From assembly GCF_020164595.1 (NCBI RefSeq), contig NZ_JAIQZE010000007.1, forward strand, positions 1 to 64,000: a stretch of 64,000 nucleotides of DNA, written 5' to 3'. Source of the stretch: Psychroflexus longus. Its GTDB lineage: Bacteria > Bacteroidota > Bacteroidia > Flavobacteriales > Flavobacteriaceae. Each line of letters opens with the position of its first letter. Positions within the stretch are counted from its first letter, which is position 1. Below, in pieces: positions 3,734 through 24,168 of this stretch. A model generated the notes under the pieces. It was not told the DNA's origin. It saw only the letters and a list, made by a program, of their open reading frames with translations, and ran no database searches. A program made the position numbers and the translations under genes.

Positions 3734-5032
3734 TTAAACTTTCTTGAGGGTGAAACTTAATAGGATACAAACAACCAAAAGTAAAAGGAAAAACCAGAAT
3801 TGGTATGCTAATCCAAAATATTCCGCAATAAGCCCGAATGAAGCTGCAACAATGGTAAATAATCCAATCAATGTATTGGCGACAGAAACGTATGTTGGTC
3901 TTTCATTTTCGGGAGCGTAATCTATAATATACGTTTTTCTGCTTAATCTTGCTCCAGAATAGGCTATGCCATTAATAAAAAATACTGGCATGAAATAATA
4001 AAAATTGAGTGCATCGGTCTTGAAGTAAAGAAAAACCAAAGCATACAAAATGCTTAATATGGACAGGCCAGCAGAGATTCTCATCAACAGAAGGCTAGAT
4101 TTGTCTGCCAATCGTCCCCAGATTGGGCTGCTAACTATCTGAGCAAGGCTACCAATAACGATGATCAATCCTAAATAGTTCCAGCTAGTATTGCTTATAT
4201 CTTTTGCAACTAAAATAAAAAATGGATCGAGCAGTGGTATTGCCATTAACAAAGCTCTTGTGATTATAAAATTTCGATAGGATTTCTCTTTTCTCAACAA
4301 AGATGCTCCAGTTTTTATTTCTTCCACAGGAGTTCTTCCTCCTTGGGTGGAACCAGGCATTTCTTGAATGAGAGAAAATATAATCGATGCTGCGACCCAA
4401 AGTAAAGAGGCTAGTGTAAATAAACCAACGTAAAGCCATTTGCTATTTTCCCCCTTCAAAAAAAATACTAAGGAACCTCCTGCAATTAGCGCTAGGGCTC
4501 CGCCAAAGGTGGATCTAAAACTAAGCATTTGACCTCTTTCTCCTTTGGGTACTGTTTTTCCTGTCACATCCTTAAAGCTTATCGATCCTACGCCAGAGGC
4601 AATACTAAAGATGAGCAACAAAAAGACTAGAGCGTAACTATTGAAAGTTTGGTTTTCGATGAAAGCAAGAATAACAGCTGAAATAAGCAAACAGCCTCCT
4701 TGAACTAATCCAGCTCCAACCCAATAAGGTTTTCTTTTTTCTTTTTTCCTTATTTGTCCACTTACAAACAATTGAGGCAAAAGAGAACCAATATCTTTTA
4801 TAGGAACCAGCATTCCAATGAGAAAAATAGGAGCACCAATAAAACTTAAAATCCAGGGCATTGTAAGCCCTGGACTTATTAATTTTTCAGCTAGCTTGGT
4901 AAGGCTTCCATTAAACACATTTAATGTGAAGTTTTTCGGCAGGTGAGTACATTGATCGTCAGGAATAGATTTACAAACCCTGGCATCAGTATCCTCGGTT
5001 AAAAATTCATAGAATTTTTCTGACCTCGACAT
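3734..5032 (-). CDS. MFS transporter
   Basis: This is a 432-residue polytopic inner-membrane protein of the major facilitator superfamily. About 50 hydrophilic N-terminal residues precede the first helix (MPWILSFIGAPIFLIGMLVP). Roughly twelve hydrophobic segments follow, with a basic cytoplasmic loop (RKKEKRKPYW) between helices 2 and 3 and a central loop around residues 225-250. The substrate cannot be read from the sequence. The start codon overlaps the stop of the upstream coiled-coil gene by one base, and trmD starts 3 bases downstream, so this is a tight three-gene unit. Why an MFS carrier is coupled to trmD is unknown. Confidence 0.85.
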   Translation of the reverse strand: MSRSEKFYEFLTEDTDARVCKSIPDDQCTHLPKNFTLNVFNGSLTKLAEKLISPGLTMPWILSFIGAPIFLIGMLVPIKDIGSLLPQLFVSGQIRKKEKRKPYWVGAGLVQGGCLLISAVILAFIENQTFNSYALVFLLLIFSIASGVGSISFKDVTGKTVPKGERGQMLSFRSTFGGALALIAGGSLVFFLKGENSKWLYVGLFTLASLLWVAASIIFSLIQEMPGSTQGGRTPVEEIKTGASLLRKEKSYRNFIITRALLMAIPLLDPFFILVAKDISNTSWNYLGLIIVIGSLAQIVSSPIWGRLADKSSLLLMRISAGLSILSILYALVFLYFKTDALNFYYFMPVFFINGIAYSGARLSRKTYIIDYAPENERPTYVSVANTLIGLFTIVAASFGLIAEYFGLAYQFWFFLLLLVVCILLSFTLKKV

Positions 5033-5646
5033 TATTTTTTATTGCCCTTATTCAGTTTTTGATTTTTATTCTTTTCGTCTTGAAGTTGTCTGCCTAATTT
5101 TTGTTGTTTTTCTAAAGCTATACGCTTGTAGTTTTCATAGTCAGCATCTAGGTTTTTCAAGTTTTGTTTAGCTTCTTTTGTTAGAAGGTTACTTCTATTA
5201 AATCTAAAGATAAAGAATAGCAGAAGTATGACTAAAACTCCAATAATAGACCAAACAAGGGTATTATATCCAGATTTAGTAAACGCTATACCTAAGAATT
5301 GAACCTCATCTTTTTCATTCTGAAGATTTGTGAGTTCTGTTTGCAAGTTGGAAACTTGTTTCTTGAGTGACTTTATTTGTTGATCTTTATTTACAATGCT
5401 GTCATTTAAGCTTGAAATTTCAGTTGTAAGAGCATCAAATTCTGAAAATACTTTATTGATTGCAGAATTGATTTTTATTTTTTCAACTACTTTATATTGT
5501 TGATAATTGTTTGACTCATCAACTACAGTTTTTAAATTGTCTACTGATGAAGGCTGTTCTTCTACCGGATCTTCGCTGGAAGGCTCTTGAGAAAAGCCTG
5601 AAAAAGAAAAAAGTATAGCGAAAATAATTAAGTGGAAAGATTTCAT
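5032..5646 (-). CDS. Secreted-N-terminus coiled-coil protein with one transmembrane helix, unknown function
   Basis: I do not recognise a function. The 204-residue protein begins with a signal-like segment (residues 1-19, ending SGFSQ) and an acidic, Pro/Glu/Ser-rich stretch. A long coiled coil follows (about 50-118, heptads rich in Leu/Ile, Lys and Gln) and then one strongly hydrophobic helix near residues 130-148 (WSIIGVLVILLLFFIF). The tail is a Lys/Gln/Asn-rich second coiled coil, presumably cytoplasmic. It is the first gene of the unit with the MFS carrier and trmD. Proteins of this architecture are sometimes labelled tRNA methyltransferase in databases, probably by transfer from neighbouring trmD; nothing in the sequence supports that activity. 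Confidence 0.75.
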   Translation of the reverse strand: MKSFHLIIFAILFSFSGFSQEPSSEDPVEEQPSSVDNLKTVVDESNNYQQYKVVEKIKINSAINKVFSEFDALTTEISSLNDSIVNKDQQIKSLKKQVSNLQTELTNLQNEKDEVQFLGIAFTKSGYNTLVWSIIGVLVILLLFFIFRFNRSNLLTKEAKQNLKNLDADYENYKRIALEKQQKLGRQLQDEKNKNQKLNKGNKK

Positions 5647-13047: not shown

Positions 13048-13133
13048 GATGAAAATTTCTAAACCATAAATTATTCAATTGGTAGTGAAAAATTATGTTG
13101 CTAAATTGATATATTTATGCAAAATTAATATAT

Positions 13134-13547
13134 ATGGATTTTTGTCCTCAATGTCAATCTGATAAAATCGTAAAAAGTGGTGTTATAAATAGCCGCCAAC
13201 GCTATAAATGTAAGTCGTGTAATTACTTTTTTACTGTTAATAAGTTGGGAAAAAAAATTGATCAATACTATGTCACTAAGGCTCTCCAGCTTTATTTAGA
13301 AGGATTGACTTATCGTGAAATTGAACGAATTTTAGGAGTCTCTCACGTAAGTGTTATGAATTGGGTGAGAAAATACAACATTCATAAAGTTCAAAATACA
13401 GGTTTTCATCCTACTTATAAGATATTAAGTCAGACTGAACTTGAGCAATTCTTTTCTTCTTCAGAAAATACCAAAGGTTCTGGTATGATTGTAACTGAAC
13501 TTGGGGATAAATTTATGATGATTAAATGGGAACGGTTCAGAGAATAA
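13134..13547 (+). CDS. IS1/InsA-like zinc-ribbon and HTH protein without transposase catalytic domain, possible regulator
   Basis: The 137-residue protein looks like the DNA-binding half of an IS1/IS1595-type transposase. A zinc ribbon uses C4-x2-C7 and C26-x2-C29. A helix-turn-helix region follows at about 46-85 (LEGLTYREIERILGVSHVSVMNW). The last 50 residues are low in motif content and hold no DDE catalytic residues. No terminal inverted repeats or target duplications were seen around it, and no second transposase frame follows. Frame and codon use look intact, which argues for a domesticated DNA-binding protein, not a dead element. It lies 113 bases upstream of the porin-symporter operon on the same strand, so I infer a role in its regulation. 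A solo InsA-like remnant is the alternative. Confidence 0.7.
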   Translation: MDFCPQCQSDKIVKSGVINSRQRYKCKSCNYFFTVNKLGKKIDQYYVTKALQLYLEGLTYREIERILGVSHVSVMNWVRKYNIHKVQNTGFHPTYKILSQTELEQFFSSSENTKGSGMIVTELGDKFMMIKWERFRE

Positions 13548-13609
13548 ATATATTCTTTAACTGAAATATATATTTAATTTTATTTAACAAATAAATTATT
13601 TGAAGTTCG

Positions 13610-13656
13610 TAACAAGTTATTAGCAAAGAATGCTATAATAAATTGAAAACTTGTTA
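13610..13656 (+). promoter_or_regulatory. Nested inverted repeats in the porin leader
   Basis: A 9-bp inverted repeat, TAACAAGTT (13610-13618) with AACTTGTTA (13648-13656), encloses a second, TAGCA-aagaa-TGCTA (13621-13635). The outer arm ends 4 bases before the porin ATG at 13661. In RNA this would fold next to the start codon; in DNA it could be a pair of operator half-sites. I see no convincing TAnnTTTG box here. Confidence 0.45.
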
Positions 13657-13660
13657 GGTA

Positions 13661-14875
13661 ATGAATTATAAAATTGCATTTTTATTAGTATTTACTGCTT
13701 TATTTAGTCATAATGCTATTTCTCAGGGTTCGCCTTATTACAAAGGTGGTTTTAAAATAAAATTTGATGACAACGACAATAAATACGTAAGGATTTTAAC
13801 TTGGGTCCAGACTCAAGCCAATTACTCAGATTCACGAGCAGAAGATCAAGCTGATATTTCTTTTCAACTGAGACGCGCAAGACTTCTTGTTTACGGTCAG
13901 ATCACAAAGGATTTTTTGGTCTTAACTCATATAGGGATCAATAGTTTAAACTCCTCGAATATGGAGCCAGTTGGTTCTGTAGGAACTCCTCAGGCGTTTA
14001 TGCACGATGCTTGGGCTCAATATAACGTTTCAGATCAGCACGTGATAGGTGGAGGCCTTCATTATTGGAACGGATTATCAAGATCAAATTCTCAAGGAAC
14101 TCTCAACTTGATGACCTTGGACAATAACCGAGCATCGTGGGCAACTTTAGGATTAACAGATCAATTTGCAAGGCATATAGGAGTATTTGCTAAAGGTAAT
14201 TTAGGAAAGCTCCAATATAATGTAGCTGTTAATGAAGCAATCGTCAATGGTCTTGATTCCAGACCGCTCTCAGACATTAGTGCTTCATATCAGGGAGCCA
14301 GTCTTCTTGGAACAGCAGAGGCTGGAAAAACGTTTACTGGATATTTTGCATACAATTTTTTCAATTTAGAAAGTAATTTTCTTCCTTACAAAGTTGGCAC
14401 TTACATGGGTACACAGCGTATTTTTAATGTGGGTGCCGGCTTTTTTCATCATCCTAATGGAGCTGTAATGCTTCAGAACGATCAACCTATTGGTGAGAAT
14501 GTCAATCTTTTTGCGGTTGATGCATTTTACGATGCTCCGGTGGGCAGCAACGGTTCAGCAATAACTGGGTATGCTATTTACCAATCCAATGATTATGGCA
14601 CAAATTATCTTTTTGGTCCTTATGCTTCTGGTGATATGCTTTATGGACACTTGGGTTATTTGTTACCTGGCTCAGAGTCAGCAAGATTTCAGCCTTACAC
14701 ATCCTATAATCACACTTTTATAGATGCTACCGATCAGGATAGAACCATTTTTGGTTTGGGAATCAACGCGTTTTTGAACGGCCATAATTCAAAACTTACA
14801 CTAGAATTTCAAAACGAAAGCTTCCAAAATCAAACTTTTAATAGAATTAATCTCCAAGCAATGATATACTTGTAA
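13661..14875 (+). CDS. Outer-membrane porin of the acetate-type symporter locus
   Basis: This is a 404-residue predicted beta-barrel. A signal peptide (residues 1-21, MNYKIAFLLVFTALFSHNA then ISQ) leads into GSPYYKGGFKIKF. Alternating polar/hydrophobic strands follow, including FQLRRARLLVYGQI, an arrangement common in phosphate-selective-type (OprO/OprP) and DcaP-like porins. There is no TonB box or plug domain, so passive diffusion is expected. The stop codon is 2 bases before the DUF4212 gene, so porin, small subunit and symporter form one operon. I infer that it admits the same organic acid as the symporter. The phosphate-porin label should not be read as phosphate specificity. Confidence 0.75.
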   Translation: MNYKIAFLLVFTALFSHNAISQGSPYYKGGFKIKFDDNDNKYVRILTWVQTQANYSDSRAEDQADISFQLRRARLLVYGQITKDFLVLTHIGINSLNSSNMEPVGSVGTPQAFMHDAWAQYNVSDQHVIGGGLHYWNGLSRSNSQGTLNLMTLDNNRASWATLGLTDQFARHIGVFAKGNLGKLQYNVAVNEAIVNGLDSRPLSDISASYQGASLLGTAEAGKTFTGYFAYNFFNLESNFLPYKVGTYMGTQRIFNVGAGFFHHPNGAVMLQNDQPIGENVNLFAVDAFYDAPVGSNGSAITGYAIYQSNDYGTNYLFGPYASGDMLYGHLGYLLPGSESARFQPYTSYNHTFIDATDQDRTIFGLGINAFLNGHNSKLTLEFQNESFQNQTFNRINLQAMIYL

Positions 14876-14877
14876 TT

Positions 14878-15147
14878 ATGGAAACAAACAACAAAAAACA
14901 GAAACACGCTACCGCCTACTGGAAAGAGAACCTGAAGTATCTGGCTATTCTTCTACCCATATGGTTTCTTGTATCCTATGGAGCAGGTATACTTTTCAAA
15001 GACTGGCTAGACCAGTTTCAAATTGGAGGCTTTAAAGTAGGCTTTTGGTTTGCACAACAAGGTTCCATCTACGTATTCATCATTTTGATTTTCGTCTACG
15101 TGAGGTTAATGAACAAATTAGATAAAAAATACGGATTCGATAAATAA
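14878..15147 (+). CDS. DUF4212 protein, small subunit of sodium:solute symporter
   Basis: The 89-residue protein has two hydrophobic helices (about 20-40, LAILLPIWFLVSYGAGILF, and 55-78, WFAQQGSIYVFIILIFVYVRL) with charged ends. It belongs to the DUF4212 family (TIGR03647, putative solute:sodium symporter small subunit), which is almost always encoded directly before a VC_2705-type symporter, as here with a 6-base gap. It probably forms a complex with the large subunit in the inner membrane; its exact role is not known. Confidence 0.93.
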   Translation: METNNKKQKHATAYWKENLKYLAILLPIWFLVSYGAGILFKDWLDQFQIGGFKVGFWFAQQGSIYVFIILIFVYVRLMNKLDKKYGFDK

Positions 15148-15153
15148 AAAACT

Positions 15154-16941
15154 ATGGATGCTCAAACACTAACTTACATTTTCGTCGGCGTTTCGTTCGC
15201 TATTTACATTGGAATAGCGATTTGGAGCCGTGCCGGTTCAACTAAAGAATTTTATGTTGCAGGTGGCGGTGTTTCGCCTTTGGCCAACGGTATGGCGACG
15301 GCTGCTGACTGGATGTCTGCAGCTTCATTTATATCCATGGCAGGTATTATTTCGTTTATGGGCTATGACGGCTCAGTATTCTTGATGGGCTGGACAGGCG
15401 GTTTTGTCCTCTTGGCATTGTTACTCGCGCCTTACTTAAGAAAGTTTGGAAAATTCACGGTTCCAGATTTTATTGGAGACCGATATTATTCCAAGACTGC
15501 TAGATTTGTGGCCGTATTTTGCGCGTTGATCGTTTCCTTTACTTACATCGCCGGTCAAATGCGTGGCGTTGGAGTTGTCTTTTCAAGATTTCTGGAAGTT
15601 GAAATTGAAACTGGAGTCATCATTGGTATGGTAATCGTTTTATTTTACGCAGTTCTGGGTGGCATGAAAGGAATCACTTATACACAAGTTGCACAATATT
15701 GTGTGCTGATTTTTGCTTTTCTGGTTCCTGCAATTTTCATTTCCTTCCAGGCTACAGGAAACCCTATTCCTATGTTTGGTATGGGAGATACACTGGCAAG
15801 TCAGCCCGATACCTACATGTTGGACAAACTTGACGGCTTAAGCAAGGAATTGGGTTTCAATGAATATACCGAAGGATCAAAAAGCATGATCGATGTTTTA
15901 GCGATAACTCTAGCTTTAATGGTTGGAACCGCTGGTTTGCCTCACGTTATTGTTAGATTCTTTACTGTCAAACGAGTAAAGGACGCACGTAAGTCTGCCG
16001 GATATGCCTTATTATTTATTGGTATTCTTTACATCACGGCTCCCGCAGTTGCTTCTTTTGGTAAATTGAATCTGATTGAAACTGTTAACCAAAAAGATTA
16101 CGCTGAAATGCCAGAATGGTTTACGACTTGGGAAGATCTTGGCCTATTGGCATGGACCGATAAAAACGGTGATGGAAAGATTCAATATTTAGGTAAAGCC
16201 AAAGAAGGAGGAGATGCCTTAACCGGAATACCTTCATTTAAAGATTCTGAAAGAGGAGAAAGTGGACAACGTTTAGTTACAAATCCTTCAGAAAATAAAA
16301 ATGAATTGTATGTGGATAATGATATAATGGTGATGGCCAATCCAGAGATCGCAGATCTTCCCAACTGGGTTTTTGCTTTAGTTGCTGCAGGCTGTTTAGC
16401 AGCTGCTTTGTCAACTGCTGCAGGTCTTTTGTTGGTAATTTCTTCTTCTGTATCTCATGATTTAATCAAAAAGATGGTGTATCCTAAAATTTCTGACAAA
16501 GGTGAATTGATCGCTGCTCGTCTTTCTGCAACAGGAGCAGTTGTGATTGCAGGTTATTTTGGAATCAATCCCCCGGGGTTTGTAGCTGCTGTTGTAGCGC
16601 TCGCCTTTGGCTTGGCTGCGGCTTCCTTTTTTCCAGCTATTATTTTGGGCATTTTTTACAAGCGCATGAATAAAGAAGGTGCCGTTGCCGGTATGATCGT
16701 TGGAATTTCACTCATGCTGTTTTATATGTTAAAATTTAAATTCGACTTCTTTGGAGGTGGAACTCAGGAAGATTGGTGGTTTGGAATTTCACCAGAAGGT
16801 TTTGGTACGGTGGCTATGATTTTCAACTTTATTGTGTCGATTGCCATCAGTAAATTTACTCCAGCACCTCCCGCTGATGTTCAGGAAATGGTAGAAAACG
16901 TGAGAATCCCTAGTGGAGCAAAAGAAGCTTCAGGCCATTAA
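15154..16941 (+). CDS. Sodium:solute symporter, VC_2705 subfamily, probable acetate/short-chain acid uptake
   Basis: This 595-residue member of the SSS family (SLC5 fold) is the large subunit partner of the preceding DUF4212 protein. Hydrophobic segments begin at residue 5. The region ATAADWMSAASFISMAG near 49 and the AALSTAAGLLLVISSSVSHDL segment near 415 are signatures of acetate permease ActP and its relatives. A hydrophilic insert at about 312-400 carries an EF-hand-like loop DKNGDGKIQY (residues 336-345, positions 16159-16188). The nearby fused acyl-CoA synthetase makes acetate or propionate the likely substrate, driven by Na+. A hairpin at 16955-16995 ends the operon. Confidence 0.9.
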   Translation: MDAQTLTYIFVGVSFAIYIGIAIWSRAGSTKEFYVAGGGVSPLANGMATAADWMSAASFISMAGIISFMGYDGSVFLMGWTGGFVLLALLLAPYLRKFGKFTVPDFIGDRYYSKTARFVAVFCALIVSFTYIAGQMRGVGVVFSRFLEVEIETGVIIGMVIVLFYAVLGGMKGITYTQVAQYCVLIFAFLVPAIFISFQATGNPIPMFGMGDTLASQPDTYMLDKLDGLSKELGFNEYTEGSKSMIDVLAITLALMVGTAGLPHVIVRFFTVKRVKDARKSAGYALLFIGILYITAPAVASFGKLNLIETVNQKDYAEMPEWFTTWEDLGLLAWTDKNGDGKIQYLGKAKEGGDALTGIPSFKDSERGESGQRLVTNPSENKNELYVDNDIMVMANPEIADLPNWVFALVAAGCLAAALSTAAGLLLVISSSVSHDLIKKMVYPKISDKGELIAARLSATGAVVIAGYFGINPPGFVAAVVALAFGLAAASFFPAIILGIFYKRMNKEGAVAGMIVGISLMLFYMLKFKFDFFGGGTQEDWWFGISPEGFGTVAMIFNFIVSIAISKFTPAPPADVQEMVENVRIPSGAKEASGH

Positions 16942-16954
16942 TATCCCTTATTAG

Positions 16955-16995
16955 TTCTCAAGAGTATGTTGCTAAAAAACACATGCTCTTGAGAA
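16955..16995 (+). terminator. Long hairpin between symporter and sensor-kinase operons
   Basis: A 15-bp stem (16955-16969 with 16981-16995, one T-G pair) with an 11-base loop is followed by a T/A-rich tract. It lies 13 bases past the symporter stop. It is probably a terminator, perhaps partial, allowing some read-through into the sensor kinase genes. Confidence 0.7.
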
Positions 16996-17028
16996 TTTTA
17001 ATTAAATTAAAAACTTATTTCTAATCGA

Positions 17029-17226
17029 ATGAAAAAAAGACACCAACAGAAACTTATTTTCTTAAGCTTCGGCTTGATTTTGCTTTTCAATATTCCTTTA
17101 GTGTTTGCTTTTAATAGGCTAAAATTAGTCTTGGGTTTCCCATTGTTTTATTTCTGTGTTTTCACCTTATGGTTGGCTAGTACTATAATTTCTTTCTCGA
17201 TTCTAAAAAAATACTCAGATCAATGA
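17029..17226 (+). CDS. Small two-helix membrane protein preceding the sensor kinase
   Basis: The 65-residue protein has a basic N-terminus (KKRHQQK) and two hydrophobic helices, about 9-27 (LIFLSFGLILLFNIPLVFA) and 36-58 (LGFPLFYFCVFTLWLASTII). The stop codon overlaps the start of the SLC5-type histidine kinase by four bases (ATGA), so translation is probably coupled. It resembles the DUF4212-type small subunit in size, topology and position before an SLC5-fold protein, although I see no clear sequence similarity. I infer an accessory subunit of the sensor. Confidence 0.75.
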   Translation: MKKRHQQKLIFLSFGLILLFNIPLVFAFNRLKLVLGFPLFYFCVFTLWLASTIISFSILKKYSDQ

Positions 17227-19919
17227 GTAAAACTGCTCTCATAGCACTCATTTTTGTTTATTTGGGAATCCTATTTCTCATAGCTCTTTTTGCTGAAAAA
17301 AATAAAGGTTCAAAACTGGTATCTCACCCCATTGTTTATGCACTTTCCCTGGCGGTATACTGTTCGGCCTGGACTTACTACGGCAGTGTGGGTATGGCTG
17401 CAAACTCTGGAGTTGAGTTTCTTACCATTTATCTCGGACCTATCATCGCTGCCCCTTTATGGATTGTTTTACTGAAAAAGATCATTCAACTTTCCAAAGT
17501 GTATAACATTTCTAGTATTGCAGATTTTATTTCACTTAGATACGGCAACAGCAGATCTCTAGGAGCTTTGGTCACTTTGGTGTGTGCAGCGAGTATTATT
17601 CCTTACATCTCACTTCAACTCAAAGCGATTTCTGAAACTTTTGAAATTGTATCTACTTCTACTCTTGGAATTGAAGGTTCATCGGTGATCACGGATTCTA
17701 CTTTTTATATAGCTTTAATCCTGGCTGTTTTCGCTTCCTTCTTTGGGACTTTAGCTTTGGATGCTTCCAAAAACAGAACGGGCGTGATGTTCTCTGTAGC
17801 GTTTGAATCTGTTTTGAAACTGACTTTTTTTCTTATTGTTGGCGTTTATGTCACTTACTATGTGTTTGATGGTACTACAGATGTATACCAAAAAGCAAGT
17901 CTTAGTTTAGATTTGAATCAGCTGAGCACTATCAACGGCTTGAGTGGTGGCATCAATTGGTATTTTAGCATTGTGCTTTCCTTTTTGGCTATTTTTTTAC
18001 TGCCTCGTCAATTTCAAACTTCAGTAGTCGAATTTACCAACAGGAAACAGCTTAAAACTTCGATTTGGTTGTTTCCGCTTTACCTTTTTCTATTCAATGT
18101 ATTTGTTATTTTCATTGCCTGGGGAGGATTGCTGATTTTAGGTGACCAAGCTAATGCCGATTACTTTACGCTTCTTATTCCACTTTACTTTGGGGACCAT
18201 TGGTTAGCTGTATTAGTGTTTTTGGGAGGTCTTTCAGCAGTGATTTCTATGGTAGTGGTTTCCACAGTAGCTCTATCCACTATGTTGAGCAATAACCTTA
18301 TTATTCCTTATGGATTTATAAAAAACCTAACCCGGGGCAAGTCGTTCAAAAATGAAAAAACTATCAAAAACATAAGGCGACTTTGTGTGTTCATTTCTAT
18401 AATCCTTGCTTATTTATTTTATGCGCTGTTTGATCCTAAGGTTTCTTTATTCTCCATTGGACTTATTTCCTTTTTAATTATCGCTCAGCTAGCTCCAAGT
18501 TTTTTTATAGGTATGTTTTGGAACAGAGGCTCGGCTTTAGGTTCCAAAGTGGGAATTATTCTTGGATTGGTATTTATCGTATTCACCTATCTGATCCCCT
18601 TTTTTACTGAACATGTTATAAGTTATCATCAATTTGTAGAGGAAGGGTTTTTGGGAATACACTTACTGAAGCCTTACGCACTTTTCGGAATTGACATTTT
18701 AAACCCTGTTAACCATGCTTTATACTGGAGTTTATTTTTTAATACCGGGGCTTATTTGATTTTGTCGGTCATAAAAAAAGGAAATTACCGGGAGCGAAAT
18801 TATGGTGAAATGTTCGTGAATAGTGAAAGAGTTGTTGAACTGAAAGAAAATGCATACGTCTGGAAAGGTGAGGCTTACGTTGATGATATTCAGAATATAT
18901 TGGTTCGTTTTCTAGGTCAAGCTAAAGCTGACAAGGCTTTGAGAGTTTTCAGAAAACGATATGCCGTCAATCCGGAAGAAAAATTGGCAGATGCCCGATT
19001 CATCAATTTCTCCGAACGTTTGCTTACTGGAGCCGTGGGAAGTGCTTCAGCAAAAATTTTAATTTCCAATGTTGCTAAAGAAAAACCTGTGTCATTGCTT
19101 GAAGTTTTGAAAATCCTGGAAGAAAATAAAGAAACTATTTCGGTCAACAAGTCGCTGGAGGAACAATCTCATAAGTTGATTAAACTCACTTCAGAATTAA
19201 AATTTGCCAATGAAGAATTGAGACTTCAAGACCAGTTAAAAGATGATTTTCTGGATACCGTAGCTCATGAGCTTAAAACGCCAATCACTTCCATCAAAGC
19301 AAGTTCTGAAGTTTTAGCGGATAGTGAAGATATGCCTCAAGAACTTCAACATAGATTTTTAAATAATATCATTCAGGATACAGAACGATTGACTGTCTTA
19401 ATCAACGATATTTTAGACTTGGAGAAGATGGCTTCAGGAAGAGATGAATTAAATCTTCAGCTTCAAAGCTTAAATAAATGCATAGAAGATGCCATCAATG
19501 GAATCAGCAGTATTGCCGGGAAAAAGAAAATTGAGGTGAATTTTGATTTTTCATCGTCTGTAATGATCGAGTTTGATTATAATAAAATGATTCAAGTGTT
19601 CACCAACTTGCTATCCAACTCTATAAAATTTGTTCCAGAAAACAACGGAAAAATTGAAGTGTTTCTTGTAGCAAATTCAGAAGAAGTTGTTACTAAAATA
19701 AAAGACAATGGTAAAGGAATTCCGGAAGAGGATCTCCAATTGATTTTCAAAAAATTCTACCAATCCAAGAATCAAACTTTCAAAAAACTTCAAGGCAGTG
19801 GCTTTGGACTTGCGATTTGTAAACAAATTGTGGAAATGCATGGAGGTGTGATTTATGCTAATTCAAATATCGAGACGGGTGCAGAACTTATTGTTAATTT
19901 ACCAAAACGAAGACCATGA
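17223..19919 (+). CDS. SLC5-type (CbrA/CrbS-like) sensor histidine kinase
   Basis: This 898-residue protein joins a transporter-like sensor to a kinase. Residues 1 to about 520 form an SSS/SLC5 domain with about 13 helices (SAWTYYGSVGMAANSGVEF near 47). Residues about 530-650 match the position and character of a STAC linker domain. A short coiled coil leads to the HisKA dimerisation box with His682 in VAHELKTPITSIKASSEVL. The HATPase domain follows, with the N box NLLSNSIKF and G boxes DNGKGIPEEDL and GSGFGLAICK. No PAS domain is evident. CrbS of Vibrio cholerae and CbrA of Pseudomonas share this design, and CrbS controls acs. The start overlaps the 65-residue gene and the stop overlaps the response regulator (ATGA both times). 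Confidence 0.93.
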   Translation: MSKTALIALIFVYLGILFLIALFAEKNKGSKLVSHPIVYALSLAVYCSAWTYYGSVGMAANSGVEFLTIYLGPIIAAPLWIVLLKKIIQLSKVYNISSIADFISLRYGNSRSLGALVTLVCAASIIPYISLQLKAISETFEIVSTSTLGIEGSSVITDSTFYIALILAVFASFFGTLALDASKNRTGVMFSVAFESVLKLTFFLIVGVYVTYYVFDGTTDVYQKASLSLDLNQLSTINGLSGGINWYFSIVLSFLAIFLLPRQFQTSVVEFTNRKQLKTSIWLFPLYLFLFNVFVIFIAWGGLLILGDQANADYFTLLIPLYFGDHWLAVLVFLGGLSAVISMVVVSTVALSTMLSNNLIIPYGFIKNLTRGKSFKNEKTIKNIRRLCVFISIILAYLFYALFDPKVSLFSIGLISFLIIAQLAPSFFIGMFWNRGSALGSKVGIILGLVFIVFTYLIPFFTEHVISYHQFVEEGFLGIHLLKPYALFGIDILNPVNHALYWSLFFNTGAYLILSVIKKGNYRERNYGEMFVNSERVVELKENAYVWKGEAYVDDIQNILVRFLGQAKADKALRVFRKRYAVNPEEKLADARFINFSERLLTGAVGSASAKILISNVAKEKPVSLLEVLKILEENKETISVNKSLEEQSHKLIKLTSELKFANEELRLQDQLKDDFLDTVAHELKTPITSIKASSEVLADSEDMPQELQHRFLNNIIQDTERLTVLINDILDLEKMASGRDELNLQLQSLNKCIEDAINGISSIAGKKKIEVNFDFSSSVMIEFDYNKMIQVFTNLLSNSIKFVPENNGKIEVFLVANSEEVVTKIKDNGKGIPEEDLQLIFKKFYQSKNQTFKKLQGSGFGLAICKQIVEMHGGVIYANSNIETGAELIVNLPKRRP

Positions 19920-20290
19920 AAAAGATTTTACTCGTAGATGATGAGCCCAATATTATAATGGCCCTGGAGTACAGTTTAAGAAAAAATAATTATGACACCT
20001 TTATTGCCAGAGATGGCGAAGAAGCGATTGAGCTTGCAGAAAAGCTCAAGCCAGATTTAGTAGTCCTTGACATTATGATGCCAAAGGTAGATGGGTACGA
20101 AGTTTTAGAATTTTTGAAAAGTCATGATACTTTAAAAGATAATACTCAAACCATAATCATAAGCGCGAAGCAAAAGCAAAGTGATGTTGAAAAAGGGCTG
20201 AATCTTGGTGCAAAAGAGTACATAAAAAAGCCATTTTCAATGAAAAAACTTTTAAGCATAGTAAATGAGTTATTAACCTTAAAAAAATAA
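19916..20290 (+). CDS. Single-domain response regulator (receiver only)
   Basis: The 124-residue protein is a CheY-like receiver domain with all key residues: Asp8 and Asp9 (metal binding), Asp52 in VVLDIMMPKVDGYE (phosphoacceptor), the conserved Ser in IIISAK and Lys in IKKPFSMK. It ends directly after helix 5, so there is no DNA-binding or enzymatic output domain. It overlaps the kinase gene by four bases and is almost certainly its partner. The homologous CrbR of Vibrio carries an HTH domain, so here the signal must leave through protein-protein contact or onward phosphotransfer. The synthetase gene starts 11 bases downstream. Confidence 0.93.
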   Translation: MKKILLVDDEPNIIMALEYSLRKNNYDTFIARDGEEAIELAEKLKPDLVVLDIMMPKVDGYEVLEFLKSHDTLKDNTQTIIISAKQKQSDVEKGLNLGAKEYIKKPFSMKKLLSIVNELLTLKK

Positions 20291-20301
20291 AATCCATAGT
20301 T

Positions 20302-23300
20302 ATGAATTATAAAGAAGTTTATCAAAAAAGTATTGAGAAGCCAGAGGAATTCTGGATGGAAGAGTCAAAAGCAATTAAATGGTTCAAAGCACCTACCAAA
20401 GCATTGGAGCAAACAGCAGAAGGTATTTATCATTGGTTTCCAGATGGTGAGACCAATTTGAGTTATTTGTGTTTAGATAAACACATTGAAGATGGATACG
20501 GAGATGAGTTGGCTCTGATTTATGACTCTGCAGTGAGGCAAAAGCAGGTGAAATATACTTACAATGAGGTGTTGGAAAAAGTTTCTAAACTCGCTGGAGG
20601 GTTAAAAGAATTAGGGGTAGAAAAAGGTGATCGGGTGATCATCTACATGCCTATGATTTCTCATTCTGTGTTCAGCATGTTGGCGTGCACAAGGATAGGC
20701 GCTATACATTCAGTAGTTTTTGGAGGTTTTGCGCCAGATGAATTGGCCATGAGAATAGACGATGCAAAACCCAAAGTGATCATTACTGCAACTTCAGGAA
20801 TTGAAGTCGATCGGCTTATAGCTTACAAACCTATGGTAGATGAAGCTATTGAAAAGGCTAAACATAAGGTTGAAAAAGTTGTAGTTTTCAATAGAAAGCT
20901 TGGAGTAGAATTTGAGGAGAAATCCTACGATATAGATTACACAGAATTGCTGGAAAATGCTACGCCAGCAGAAGCCATCGCTTTTAAATCTAAAGATCCT
21001 TCTTATATTCTTTATACATCCGGAACTACAGGAACCCCTAAAGGAGTGGTGAGAGACACCGGTGGCTATGCCGTAGGACTAAAGTATTCCATGCAGAATA
21101 TCTATGGTACTAAACCTGGTGATGTGTTCTGGGCAGCATCCGATGTTGGTTGGGTTGTAGGGCATAGCTATATCGTTTACGCTCCTATGATTCATAGGAA
21201 TACCACTATCATTTATGAAGGGAAACCTATCAAAACACCGGATGCAGGTGCTTTTTGGAGAGTTATAGAAGATCACAAAGTGAATGTCATGTTTACTGCA
21301 CCAACGGCATTTAGAGCCATCAAAAAAGAAGATCCAAATGGTGAATTCATAAAAAAACATGATATCTCTTCTATGAAATATCAGTTTTTAGCCGGTGAGC
21401 GTTGTGATGAAACGACATTAAAATGGGCCGAAGACCATCTAAAAATCCCTGTCATCGATCATTGGTGGCAGACCGAATCGGGTTGGTCTATCGTAGCCAA
21501 TTATATGGGACTCGATCCTCTGCCAGTTAAACCTGGTTCTGCAGGGAAGGCCGTTCCTGGATACGATTTGGTAATTCTTTCTGAAGAAGGCGAGATTTTG
21601 CCAGCAAATACTGAAGGATATATTTGCTCCAGATTGCCACTTCCTCCAGGTTTTATGCAAACGCTTTGGAATAACCACGAACGCTACAAAAACGGATATT
21701 TAAGTAAATTTCCAGGATTTTATTTTTCTGGCGACGGAGGCTATATAGACGAAGAGGGTTATGTTTACATTACTGGGAGAATTGATGACGTTATCAATGT
21801 CTCTGGTCATCGGCTTTCTACAGCTGCTTTGGAGGAAGTAGTTTCTCAACATCCATCTGTAGCAGAATGCGCCGTAGTTGGATTGCAGGACGAGCTGAAA
21901 GGAGAAATTCCATTAGCTATTGTGGTTCCAAAAACAGGCGAGGAGGGTTACGAATCCTATAAAATGCAGACTGAAATCATTCAGTTGGTAAGAGACAAAA
22001 TCGGAGCTATTGCGGCTTTGAAAAACGTGGTCATTGTTAAACGTCTGCCTAAAACTAGAAGCGGTAAAACTTTAAGAAGGACTTTAAGGAAACTGGTTGC
22101 TGGTCAGCCTTACAAACTTCCATCCACTATTGAGGATCCTATGGTCATCAGTGAGATCATTGAAACTTTTAGTCAGGAGAAAATTGGAGCTTTCAGTAAA
22201 AATAAAGATCAGGTGACTCAGTCTTTAAAAGCACTGACCAAGAGTTATTACAACATTGATTCACTGGCCAAGTATATGGATGTGTATAGAATTTCTCAAA
22301 ACGATCCGGAGAACTTCTGGAACACCATAGCGGAACGTAATTTTGAGTGGAAGCGAAAATGGGATTCAGTCTTGAAATGGGACCCTGAAAAAGCTGAAGT
22401 CAGTTGGTTCGAAGGCGCTCAGCTCAACATCACTGAAAATGCGATAGACAGACATCTGAAAACGAGAGGTAATAAAACAGCTATTATCTGGGAACCTAAT
22501 AACCCTGGGGAAAAAGCGCTACATATAAGTTATAACGACTTATCAAAACGCGTCAATAAAATGGCGAATGTGTTGAAAAAAAATGGAGTTCAAAAAGGGG
22601 ATCGGGTTTGCATTTATCTTCCAATGATTCCTGAACTCGCCATTGCTACTTTAGCCTGTGCCAGAATTGGAGCAGTACACTCTGTAGTTTTTGCTGGATT
22701 TTCTGCGTCTGCCTTGTCTTCAAGAATTAACGATTCAGATTGCAAAATGGTCATTACGTCAGACGGATCTTACAGAGGCGCCAAAAGCATTGATTTAAAA
22801 AGCATAGTTAATGAAGCTTTAGAAAATACACCTTCAGTAGAATGCGTTTTGGTGGCTAAACGAACCTTTTCAAAAATTGAAATGGTCGAAGGTCGTGATG
22901 TTTGGCTACATGAAGAGTTAAAACAAGTCGAAGATAAATGCGAAGCCGAAGTGATGGACGCAGAAGACATGCTTTTCATACTATACACTTCCGGTTCCAC
23001 GGGAACTCCAAAAGGTATGGTACATACTACCGCTGGCTATATGGTGTATACCGCATTCTCATTCAAAAATGTATTTCAATATCAGGAGAATGACGTTTAT
23101 TGGTGTACTGCTGATATTGGCTGGATTACCGGACATTCTTACATAGTCTACGGACCACTTCTGAATGGCGCTACTACATTGATGTTTGAAGGCGTTCCTT
23201 CATATCCAGATTATGGTAGATTTTGGGATATTGTAGAAAAATATAAAGTGAATCAATTTTATACAGCACCAACAGCGATTAGAGCTTTGGCAAAACAGGA

Positions 23301-24168
23301 CATCGAGTTTGTCAATAAATACGATTTATCTTCTTTAAAAGTTCTTGGAAGTGTTGGAGAACCCATCAATGAAGAAGCCTGGAACTGGTACAATGAGAAT
23401 ATTGGAAAGAAAAAATGCCCTATTGTAGATACCTGGTGGCAAACGGAGACTGGTGGCATCATGATTTCTCCTATTCCGTTTGTAACGCCTACAAAACCTA
23501 CATATGCTACGCTTCCATTACCTGGAATTCAGCCTTCTTTGATGGATGATAAAGGAAATGAAATTGAGGGAAATTCAGTTTCAGGAAAACTTTGCATAAA
23601 ACATCCATGGCCGAGTATGGCCAGGACGGTTTATGGAAACCATAAACGGTACAGAGAGACATATTATTCAGCGTTCGAAAATGTGTACTTCACCGGTGAC
23701 GGTGCCTTAAGAGATGAGGTAGGATACTATAGAATTACGGGTAGAGTAGATGATGTTATTATTGTTTCTGGTCATAATTTGGGAACGGCGCCAATTGAAG
23801 ATGCCATCAATGAACACCCAGCTGTTGCAGAGTCTGCAATTATAGGTTTTCCACATAATGTAAAAGGAAACGCGCTTGCGGGATTTGTCATTTTGAAGAA
23901 TGAAGGTGAATCCAGGGATAAAGAAAACTTAAGCAAAGAAATCAACCAATTGATCGCCAGTAAAATTGGGCCTATTGCCAAGTTGGATCGTATTCATTTC
24001 GTATCAGGTTTACCTAAAACACGAAGTGGTAAAATCATGCGACGTATCATGAGAAAAATATCTTCCAATGAAGGCGATCAAATTGGTGATGTATCTACTT
24101 TGCTGGACCCTAGTATTGTAGAAGAAATTAAAGAGAAAGTTCAGCCTTTTTTAGTTGAAAATAAATAG
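20302..24168 (+). CDS. acs: Fused tandem acyl-CoA synthetase: PrpE-like half plus Acs-like half
   Basis: One 1288-residue frame encodes two complete AMP-forming synthetases. Half 1 (about 1-620) is PrpE-like: YTSGTTGTPKGVVRD (P-loop), DHWWQTESGW, GRIDDVINVSGHRLST and the adenylation lysine in KTRSGKTLRR. Half 2 (about 651-1288) is Acs-like: YTSGSTGTPKGMVHT, DTWWQTETGG, GRVDDVIIVSGHN and KTRSGKIMRR. At the acyl-pocket position before GE[PR], half 1 has Ala (FLAGER) and half 2 has Val (GSVGEP). In characterised enzymes this change goes with propionate and acetate preference respectively. A charged linker (about 620-650) replaces the expected stop and start. The product should make acetyl-CoA and propionyl-CoA from the acids, ATP and CoA. 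A base-call error that removed a stop codon remains possible. Confidence 0.9.
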   Translation: MNYKEVYQKSIEKPEEFWMEESKAIKWFKAPTKALEQTAEGIYHWFPDGETNLSYLCLDKHIEDGYGDELALIYDSAVRQKQVKYTYNEVLEKVSKLAGGLKELGVEKGDRVIIYMPMISHSVFSMLACTRIGAIHSVVFGGFAPDELAMRIDDAKPKVIITATSGIEVDRLIAYKPMVDEAIEKAKHKVEKVVVFNRKLGVEFEEKSYDIDYTELLENATPAEAIAFKSKDPSYILYTSGTTGTPKGVVRDTGGYAVGLKYSMQNIYGTKPGDVFWAASDVGWVVGHSYIVYAPMIHRNTTIIYEGKPIKTPDAGAFWRVIEDHKVNVMFTAPTAFRAIKKEDPNGEFIKKHDISSMKYQFLAGERCDETTLKWAEDHLKIPVIDHWWQTESGWSIVANYMGLDPLPVKPGSAGKAVPGYDLVILSEEGEILPANTEGYICSRLPLPPGFMQTLWNNHERYKNGYLSKFPGFYFSGDGGYIDEEGYVYITGRIDDVINVSGHRLSTAALEEVVSQHPSVAECAVVGLQDELKGEIPLAIVVPKTGEEGYESYKMQTEIIQLVRDKIGAIAALKNVVIVKRLPKTRSGKTLRRTLRKLVAGQPYKLPSTIEDPMVISEIIETFSQEKIGAFSKNKDQVTQSLKALTKSYYNIDSLAKYMDVYRISQNDPENFWNTIAERNFEWKRKWDSVLKWDPEKAEVSWFEGAQLNITENAIDRHLKTRGNKTAIIWEPNNPGEKALHISYNDLSKRVNKMANVLKKNGVQKGDRVCIYLPMIPELAIATLACARIGAVHSVVFAGFSASALSSRINDSDCKMVITSDGSYRGAKSIDLKSIVNEALENTPSVECVLVAKRTFSKIEMVEGRDVWLHEELKQVEDKCEAEVMDAEDMLFILYTSGSTGTPKGMVHTTAGYMVYTAFSFKNVFQYQENDVYWCTADIGWITGHSYIVYGPLLNGATTLMFEGVPSYPDYGRFWDIVEKYKVNQFYTAPTAIRALAKQDIEFVNKYDLSSLKVLGSVGEPINEEAWNWYNENIGKKKCPIVDTWWQTETGGIMISPIPFVTPTKPTYATLPLPGIQPSLMDDKGNEIEGNSVSGKLCIKHPWPSMARTVYGNHKRYRETYYSAFENVYFTGDGALRDEVGYYRITGRVDDVIIVSGHNLGTAPIEDAINEHPAVAESAIIGFPHNVKGNALAGFVILKNEGESRDKENLSKEINQLIASKIGPIAKLDRIHFVSGLPKTRSGKIMRRIMRKISSNEGDQIGDVSTLLDPSIVEEIKEKVQPFLVENK

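Follow-up and report, generated by a model that had tools for sequence, protein, structure and literature searches.

Eight genes at positions 13134 to 24168 of a 64,000-nucleotide stretch of Psychroflexus longus DNA (the window) probably form an operon for the uptake and activation of short-chain acids that is controlled by a domesticated remnant of an insertion sequence (IS) of the IS1 family, of which the InsA protein and both ends have been kept. We put the probability of this reading at about 0.75. The order of the genes, the conservation and uniqueness of a repeat at the InsA-like gene, the resemblance between its unit and the ends of the closest IS1 elements, and the grouping of the proteins are computational observations, and they suggest that the InsA-like protein would bind DNA at the candidate operators and would activate or repress the cluster. 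The elements on which the reading turns are the following.

13134..13547, + strand: InsA-like protein, 137 amino acids (aa), with zinc ribbon, helix-turn-helix (HTH), and short alpha/beta tail; matches the IS1 first reading frame; candidate DNA-binding regulator
13099..13132, + strand: operator-like tandem direct repeat, TGCTAAATTGATATA-TTTA-TGCAAAATTAATATA, read as a left-end (IRL-like) remnant
13549..13589, - strand: operator-like block in inverted orientation, located between the insA-like and porin genes, read as a right-end (IRR-like) remnant; degenerate in the genus

An IS1-Related Protein That Is Not a Transposase

The InsA-like gene heads the cluster and adjoins the porin gene, and its product is 98% identical to that of Psychroflexus lacisalsi, the nearest named locus. 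A preliminary description of this DNA had treated the gene as a boundary; this does not hold, as the gene belongs to the unit and has a conserved operator-like repeat of its own. The protein matches the IS1 profile NF033558 over profile positions 1-126 of 199 with 78.2 bits (cut-off 100), and its N-terminus exceeds the cut-offs of NF050000 (42.2 bits; cut-off 28), HTH_23, and HTH_28. A structure model is consistent with an N-terminal zinc ribbon and helix-turn-helix. No second frame with a DDE catalytic core was found at the locus, where the 137-aa protein is followed by the porin.

Relatives were drawn from a set of 60 whole genomes, scored for the InsA-like gene, the kinase, and the repeat; from a phylum sample of 345 genomes, scored for the InsA-like gene and the SLC5-type kinase; and from a contig scan for InsA-like relatives (E up to 1e-3), of which the best 80 of at least 554 stretches were used, including Psychroflexus, Winogradskyella, Kordia, Aquimarina, Zobellia, and Crocinitomix. 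In the phylum sample, the InsA-like gene was matched in 29 of 345 genomes, two of these matches being IS1 copies (L138 and L139), which were excluded from the counts of InsA-like genes. The window's genome and all 29 matching genomes gave a single match each, in a conserved context, and neither mobility nor multiple copies of the IS1 type were seen. In eight Psychroflexus pairs, nonsynonymous divergence (dN) was at most 0.12 against a synonymous divergence (dS) of at least 0.37 (two values saturated), and the gene is under strong purifying selection. The InsA-like protein is IS1-related but is not an IS1 transposase, and the candidate explanation of the gene as a passing transposase was rejected. 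One relative (G025) has 14 additional weak matches, to a different 344-aa frame.

Conserved Repeats on Both Sides of the InsA-Like Gene

Upstream of the gene, the unit TGCTAAnTTnnTATA occurs twice with a 19-base spacing, and the second copy ends one base before the insA-like ATG. All of the 98 loci compared fit at least 23 of 28 fixed positions of this repeat, and the alignment of 97 loci holds 62 bits of information over 40 columns. The repeat is still legible in a locus with a GC content of 62.7% (L132), where the 150-base stretch before the gene has 54%. These insA-side sites served to train the unit model; the search of the 60 genomes, the site before the porin gene, and the ends of IS1 elements are independent tests.

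In the genome search, allowing at most three mismatches, exactly one site was found in each of 22 of the 60 genomes, always within about 30 bases upstream of the InsA-like gene, and none was found in the 35 genomes where the InsA-like gene was not found (a weak match in G059, which contains stops, was treated as no gene). A reversed pattern used as a control did not occur in the 60 genomes. The InsA-bearing genomes missed by the search (G022, G040, and G053) have versions of the repeat with four or five mismatches. A chance origin of the repeat was rejected.

The site on the porin side is inverted, with 50 bits over 48 columns in 69 loci and a 21-base spacing. With the unit model, it lies above the 99% level of shuffled sequences in 46 of 98 loci and above the 95% level in 61, inverted in every case; the unit on the insA side lies forward in 98/98 loci, a count that is circular. 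A scan for the dimer along the cluster exceeded the 99% shuffle level at insA in 106/110 loci (again circular), at the porin gene in 42/95, at the receiver gene in 1/104, and at acsA in 1/117, with none at the genes for DUF4212 (0/102), the symporter (0/100), the 65-aa protein (0/95), the kinase (0/101), or PrpE (0/75). The single match at acsA is in a locus (L135) where insA and acsA are oriented divergently, with the repeat in between.

Similar Units in the Ends of the Nearest IS1 Elements

The terminal inverted repeats of six IS1-family elements from another order of the phylum (L138 and L180-L184) contain the unit. These elements were traced through the first frame of L138, which was matched in 7 of 123 genomes; the seventh match, L185, is short, has no ends, and was counted neither among the IS1 elements nor in the groups of the tree. 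Each of the six exceeds the IS1 profile cut-off in at least one frame, and of the elements scanned, four have two overlapping frames and L184 has one whole frame. Their first frames cover IS1 profile positions 1-115 to 1-118, compared with 1-126 for the window protein, and the second frames of four elements cover positions 108-199. L180 carries GGCATTGCTAAATTAGTATAG at both ends, both of which contain TGCTAAATTAGTATA. The unit scored above shuffled ends at p<0.005 in 10 of the 12 ends, and the operator-like sites lack the GG tip that the IS1 ends carry.

For comparison, 18 IS1 elements of 17 loci were looked at among 20 further IS1 regions of the phylum sample. Clear ends were present only in L160 (22/24) and L174 (21/24), to which L172 (16/24), picked by eye, was added; none of the six ends of these three elements, which differ from those above, scored p<0.005 for the unit. 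The remaining elements (14 to 18 of 24) have no clear ends and are uninformative either way.

In a tree of 47 N-terminal regions, a branch (96/87) separates the 27 InsA-like rows and L185 from the other rows (89/91 for the 27 without L185), the IS1 rows L181 and L183 stand next to the InsA-like rows (99/95), and the group that includes all six matching elements has moderate values (86/84). Several IS1 branches are long, the bootstrap is unsettled, and the root is a midpoint root. The polarity, with IS1 as the ancestor of the regulator, therefore also depends on the absence of the second frame, the occurrence as one copy, and the constant position. L185 itself (5012-5407, minus strand) encodes another short InsA-like protein (131 aa), whose tail is similar, and comes from a different order of the phylum. 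Neither the unit nor IS ends were found there, nor an acs gene within the 10 kb fetched, and it may represent a second domestication or an early branch.

Overall, an IS1 origin of both the InsA-like gene and its sites has good support. Two other accounts can be set against it. The InsA-like protein might be a regulator whose operators resemble IS1 ends by convergence in AT-rich DNA; the sequences are indeed AT-rich, and the likeness involves just six IS1 elements of one order, two of them (L138 and L182) weak and one with a hand-picked repeat: for L182, the third-ranked inverted repeat was chosen because it overlaps the unit, a choice that favors an IS1 origin. We regard convergence as unlikely, given the p values of the 10 ends, the presence of TGCTAAATTAGTATA in both ends of L180, the lack of matches (0/6) in IS1 elements with other ends, and the position of the matching elements as the nearest IS1 rows in the tree.

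Alternatively, the cluster might be an ordinary acetate cluster of the CrbS/R type, with the InsA-like gene a passive IS scar and the repeat a mere promoter. Control of acs by SLC5 kinases is already known and the gene does match IS1 profiles, and yet this account seems very improbable. A scar would hardly be expected as a single copy at one position across many families under strong purifying selection; the tandem repeat is found once per genome and only with the gene, which is unexpected for a housekeeping promoter; and its unit recurs in IS1 ends.

A Conserved Gene Order with Exchangeable Transport Genes

Downstream of the right-hand site, seven further genes follow, and a check of the open reading frames places all eight genes on the + strand.

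13661..14875, + strand: porin-like outer-membrane protein, 404 aa (from the open reading frame and the locus maps of relatives)
14878..15147, + strand: DUF4212 small symporter subunit, 89 aa; DUF4212/TIGR03647 above cut-off
15154..16941, + strand: VC_2705-family sodium/solute symporter, 595 aa; TIGR03648 860.6 bits (cut-off 320.75)
17029..17226, + strand: small membrane protein, 65 aa; family members weakly DUF3311-like
17223..19919, + strand: SLC5-type sensor histidine kinase, 898 aa; SSF, HisKA, and HATPase_c
19916..20290, + strand: receiver-only response regulator, 124 aa; Response_reg
20302..24168, + strand: fused PrpE-type and AcsA acyl-CoA synthetase, 1288 aa; family profiles of both halves
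13610..13656, + strand: predicted leader stem-loop directly before the porin start codon, with a TAACAAGTT/AACTTGTTA stem; window z -1.4

The kinase gene overlaps its upstream and its downstream neighbor by four bases each. In this respect the preliminary description was accurate: the frames, families, and overlaps of the seven genes that it listed after the InsA-like gene were all borne out, and relatives keep the gene order, as its reading required. For the neighbor counts, 110 InsA-like loci were available after the prior removal of seven recognized duplicates, 97 of them with at least 10 kb downstream; the loci were chosen by the InsA-like protein alone, and the neighbors themselves were unselected. 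Same-strand neighbors in the 97 loci included the porin in 92, DUF4212 in 83, the symporter in 83, the 65-aa gene in 89, the kinase in 96, the receiver in 96, PrpE in 66, and AcsA in 94. This conservation of gene order is far beyond chance.

The transport genes can be swapped. In six loci, an MFS transporter is present instead of DUF4212 and the symporter (recognized by Pfam in L022, L135, and L136 and by similarity of sequence in L023, L132, and L142), and a different outer-membrane protein takes the place of the porin in L020 and L142; the InsA-like protein, kinase, and receiver are retained in the lineages with a swapped transporter or porin. The earlier picture of a self-contained porin-symporter-sensor-synthetase cluster therefore stands as regards a shared unit of transport, sensing, and activation, and fails as regards the porin and symporter, which can be replaced. 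Likewise, the fused synthetase that it named as part of the system is present in the window and is one variant: PrpE and AcsA are fused in 17 and separate in 49 of the 66 loci that have both on the insA strand, a count from which the window, with its fused gene, is left out. The fusion is scattered over lineages (window 20302-24168, L038, L101, L020, L021, and L026). The MFS transporter of L022 and L023 is followed by a membrane protein of 75 aa. In a relative within the genus (G003, locus L118), AcsA lies directly after NhaC-BshB1 and the block from insA to PrpE is absent.

The first half of the synthetase is best matched by the propionate--CoA ligase model NF007815 (746.8 bits, under the cut-off of 955) and the second half by the AcsA model TIGR02188 (965.3 bits; cut-off 724.95), which suggests that the substrates are short-chain acids, probably acetate and propionate. 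The porin has one NCBIfam match below cut-off (porin_ExtI, 71.9; cut-off 150) and no match in Pfam. DUF3311 was matched in 8 of 20 members of the 65-aa protein family (best E 0.0012), and the window's own member does not match it. When the porin leaders of 94 loci were folded, z was below -1 in 57 and below -2 in 21, and a consensus fold over the whole alignment of these leaders gave no structure. Within Psychroflexus, the leader stem shows paired changes, TAACAAGTT/AACTTGTTA versus TGTCAAGTT/AACTTGACA.

A Tentative Split Response Regulator

The kinase contains SSF (24.4 bits; cut-off 22.8), HisKA (62.1 bits), and HATPase_c (89.3 bits) and has no Response_reg domain; the receiver is a separate gene of 124 aa, with Response_reg at residues 4-116 and no DNA-binding domain among its Pfam matches. 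No STAC model was among the Pfam matches of the kinase, and a PDB sequence search with residues 520-670 gave nothing meaningful. The stretch ERLLTGAVGSASAKILIS may resemble STAC. Since the receiver cannot be seen to bind DNA by a domain of its own, the likeliest output of the system is the InsA-like protein.

The distribution of the genes bears on this link. Among the 60 relatives, the InsA-like gene and the kinase occur together in 23, neither occurs in 32, the kinase alone occurs in three, and the InsA-like gene alone occurs in two. In all three kinase-only relatives (L009, L028, and L029), the contig stops before the expected position of insA. One InsA-only relative (G023, L027) has a contig end inside the symporter gene, and the other (G052, L026) has the order InsA-receiver-PrpE/AcsA; porin, transporter, and kinase are all missing from between these genes. 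In the phylum sample, in which the kinase was found in 37 of 345 genomes, 25 of the 25 kinase-bearing genomes of the window's class carry the InsA-like gene. A further genome (G345) has an InsA-like gene, and the kinase was not found on its short contig.

Based on these data, a simple model would suggest that an IS1-family element lost its second, catalytic frame, that the InsA protein stayed as a host regulator, and that the two terminal inverted repeats stayed as its binding sites. The left copy abuts the start of the insA-like gene and would be expected to give autoregulation like that of IS1. Its counterpart on the right precedes the porin operon and would be expected to control the genes from porin to synthetase. 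The SLC5 kinase would sense the acid or its transport and phosphorylate the receiver, which in turn would modulate the InsA-like protein on the IS-derived operators. Direct contact between the receiver and the InsA-like protein, suggested by their co-occurrence, by the G052 locus, and by the lineages outside the class, stands at roughly even odds. The full proposal is more tentative: a split response regulator, present across many families within a single class of Bacteroidota, with a host protein as the receiver and a domesticated IS1 InsA as the DNA-binding half, which would still recognize the IS1 ends, now turned into operators for the use of short-chain acids.

A stand-alone role for the InsA-like protein is possible, if less likely than not. 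It would then respond to a signal of its own, such as a ligand of the C-terminal tail or of the zinc site, while the kinase and receiver act elsewhere, for instance on transport or on the synthetase. The strong conservation of the C-terminal tail, the InsA-MFS-AcsA locus of G222, which lacks the kinase, and the occurrence of the receiver without an InsA-like protein outside the class all fit such a role. It is less easily reconciled with the presence of the gene in all 25 kinase-bearing genomes of the class or with G052, where it lies right beside the receiver and kinase and transporter were not found. InsA-like distances also track those of the kinase and receiver above those of the symporter or porin (r of 0.90, 0.83, 0.70, and 0.50, respectively, over 73 loci); these correlations are weak evidence, and their AcsA column is unreliable.

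Several observations weigh against control by an IS1 remnant coupled to the kinase. On the DNA side, the right-hand site passes the 99% level in only 46 of the 98 loci, and the window's own right-hand copy scores -3.8, below the pass level. The insA-side counts of the dimer scan and of the unit scoring are circular because the unit model was trained on insA-side sites, and two IS1 ends are weak (L138 right, p 0.025; L182 right, p 0.11). On the protein side, a structural search with the C-terminal tail gave no clear match. In the phylum sample, G222 is the sole InsA-bearing genome of the class without the kinase, and since the gene is kinase-less there and in G052, the InsA-like protein need not act via the kinase. 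Finally, outside the class, the kinase occurs without the InsA-like gene in 12 of 12 genomes, with an adjacent receiver in 11.

These outside lineages show a number of other arrangements. The receiver of L151 is a receiver only, by Pfam. In five of the 12 loci (four from genomes of family f27, one from f49), an ArsR-family HTH protein lies directly upstream of the kinase (L151:6233-6568, L152, L146, L147, and L157:7269-7607). A sixth locus, where a receiver was not found, has a Cro/C1-type HTH protein there that carries an M78 domain (L153:10900-12390). Such proteins are possible replacement DNA-binding partners; in the other six loci, no HTH partner was seen, short of a full search. Six loci from other classes (L148, L149, L150, L154, L155, and L156) have an SLC5 kinase and a receiver with no acs in the stretch fetched, and downstream of such pairs are an exonuclease-domain protein (L149, by Pfam) and a 339-aa protein without a Pfam match (L150).

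Significance and Comparison with Known Systems

Recruitment of regulators from mobile elements has often been proposed. If domestication of an IS1 remnant is correct, the protein and both DNA ends have been kept together in place, with IS relatives that bear similar ends, and the steps of domestication become directly testable. It would also explain by what route a regulator that consists of a receiver alone, next to an SLC5-type kinase, acts on DNA in a large bacterial group, and how acetate and propionate use is controlled in these bacteria. As the InsA-like gene matches transposase models, it is easily overlooked in annotation. In keeping with the preliminary description, which knew of no such combination of genes, no description was found among the top-ranked matches in the open-licence literature.

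The closest known system is CrbS/CrbR (MxtR/ErdR), in which, according to excerpts of the sources, an SLC5-type histidine kinase governs acs together with actP, and actP shares its operon with the gene of a small membrane protein (PMC5715377), and CrbR belongs to the LuxR family (PMC9100948). The SLC5-plus-kinase architecture is common to CrbS, RpuS, CbrA, and the kinase of the window. CrbS, however, has its own receiver domain, whereas the receiver of the window stands alone as a 124-aa protein, an InsA-like protein is the candidate for DNA binding, and the porin, symporter, and fused synthetase are clustered with the kinase. With neither a kinase-borne receiver nor a LuxR-type regulator, the regulatory system of the cluster is one other than CrbS/R. 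The pyruvate system RpuS/RpuR of Sinorhizobium fredii, as far as the excerpted text describes it, combines an SLC5/STAC kinase with a DUF3311 protein near the symporter gene and a direct-repeat site (PMC9100948); it differs in its LuxR-family response regulator and its substrate, and an IS-derived part is not mentioned in those excerpts. Pairs of DUF4212 and VC_2705 genes beside acs also occur in four genomes (L110-L113), which share the DUF4212-symporter-AcsA order and differ in that neither the InsA-like gene, the repeat, nor the kinase was found in them.

The InsA protein of IS1 is described in excerpts of PMC12428005 as having a zinc finger and a helix-turn-helix, binding both IS1 ends, and repressing its own promoter. 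As in IS1, an InsA-type gene lies here between inverted copies of one site, of which the right-hand one is degenerate in the window; unlike in IS1, the second catalytic frame and the GG tip are missing, the units are in tandem, the position is fixed, and a host operon lies beyond the right copy. Among co-opted mobile-element regulators, Ner/SfsB and others provide a precedent for a transcription factor recruited to carbon metabolism (PMC8987985, in excerpt; IS1 does not occur in the excerpted text). There the recruited protein is from a phage, whereas here it would be an IS protein together with both IS ends. The window shows a known type of sensor with a candidate output derived from a mobile element.

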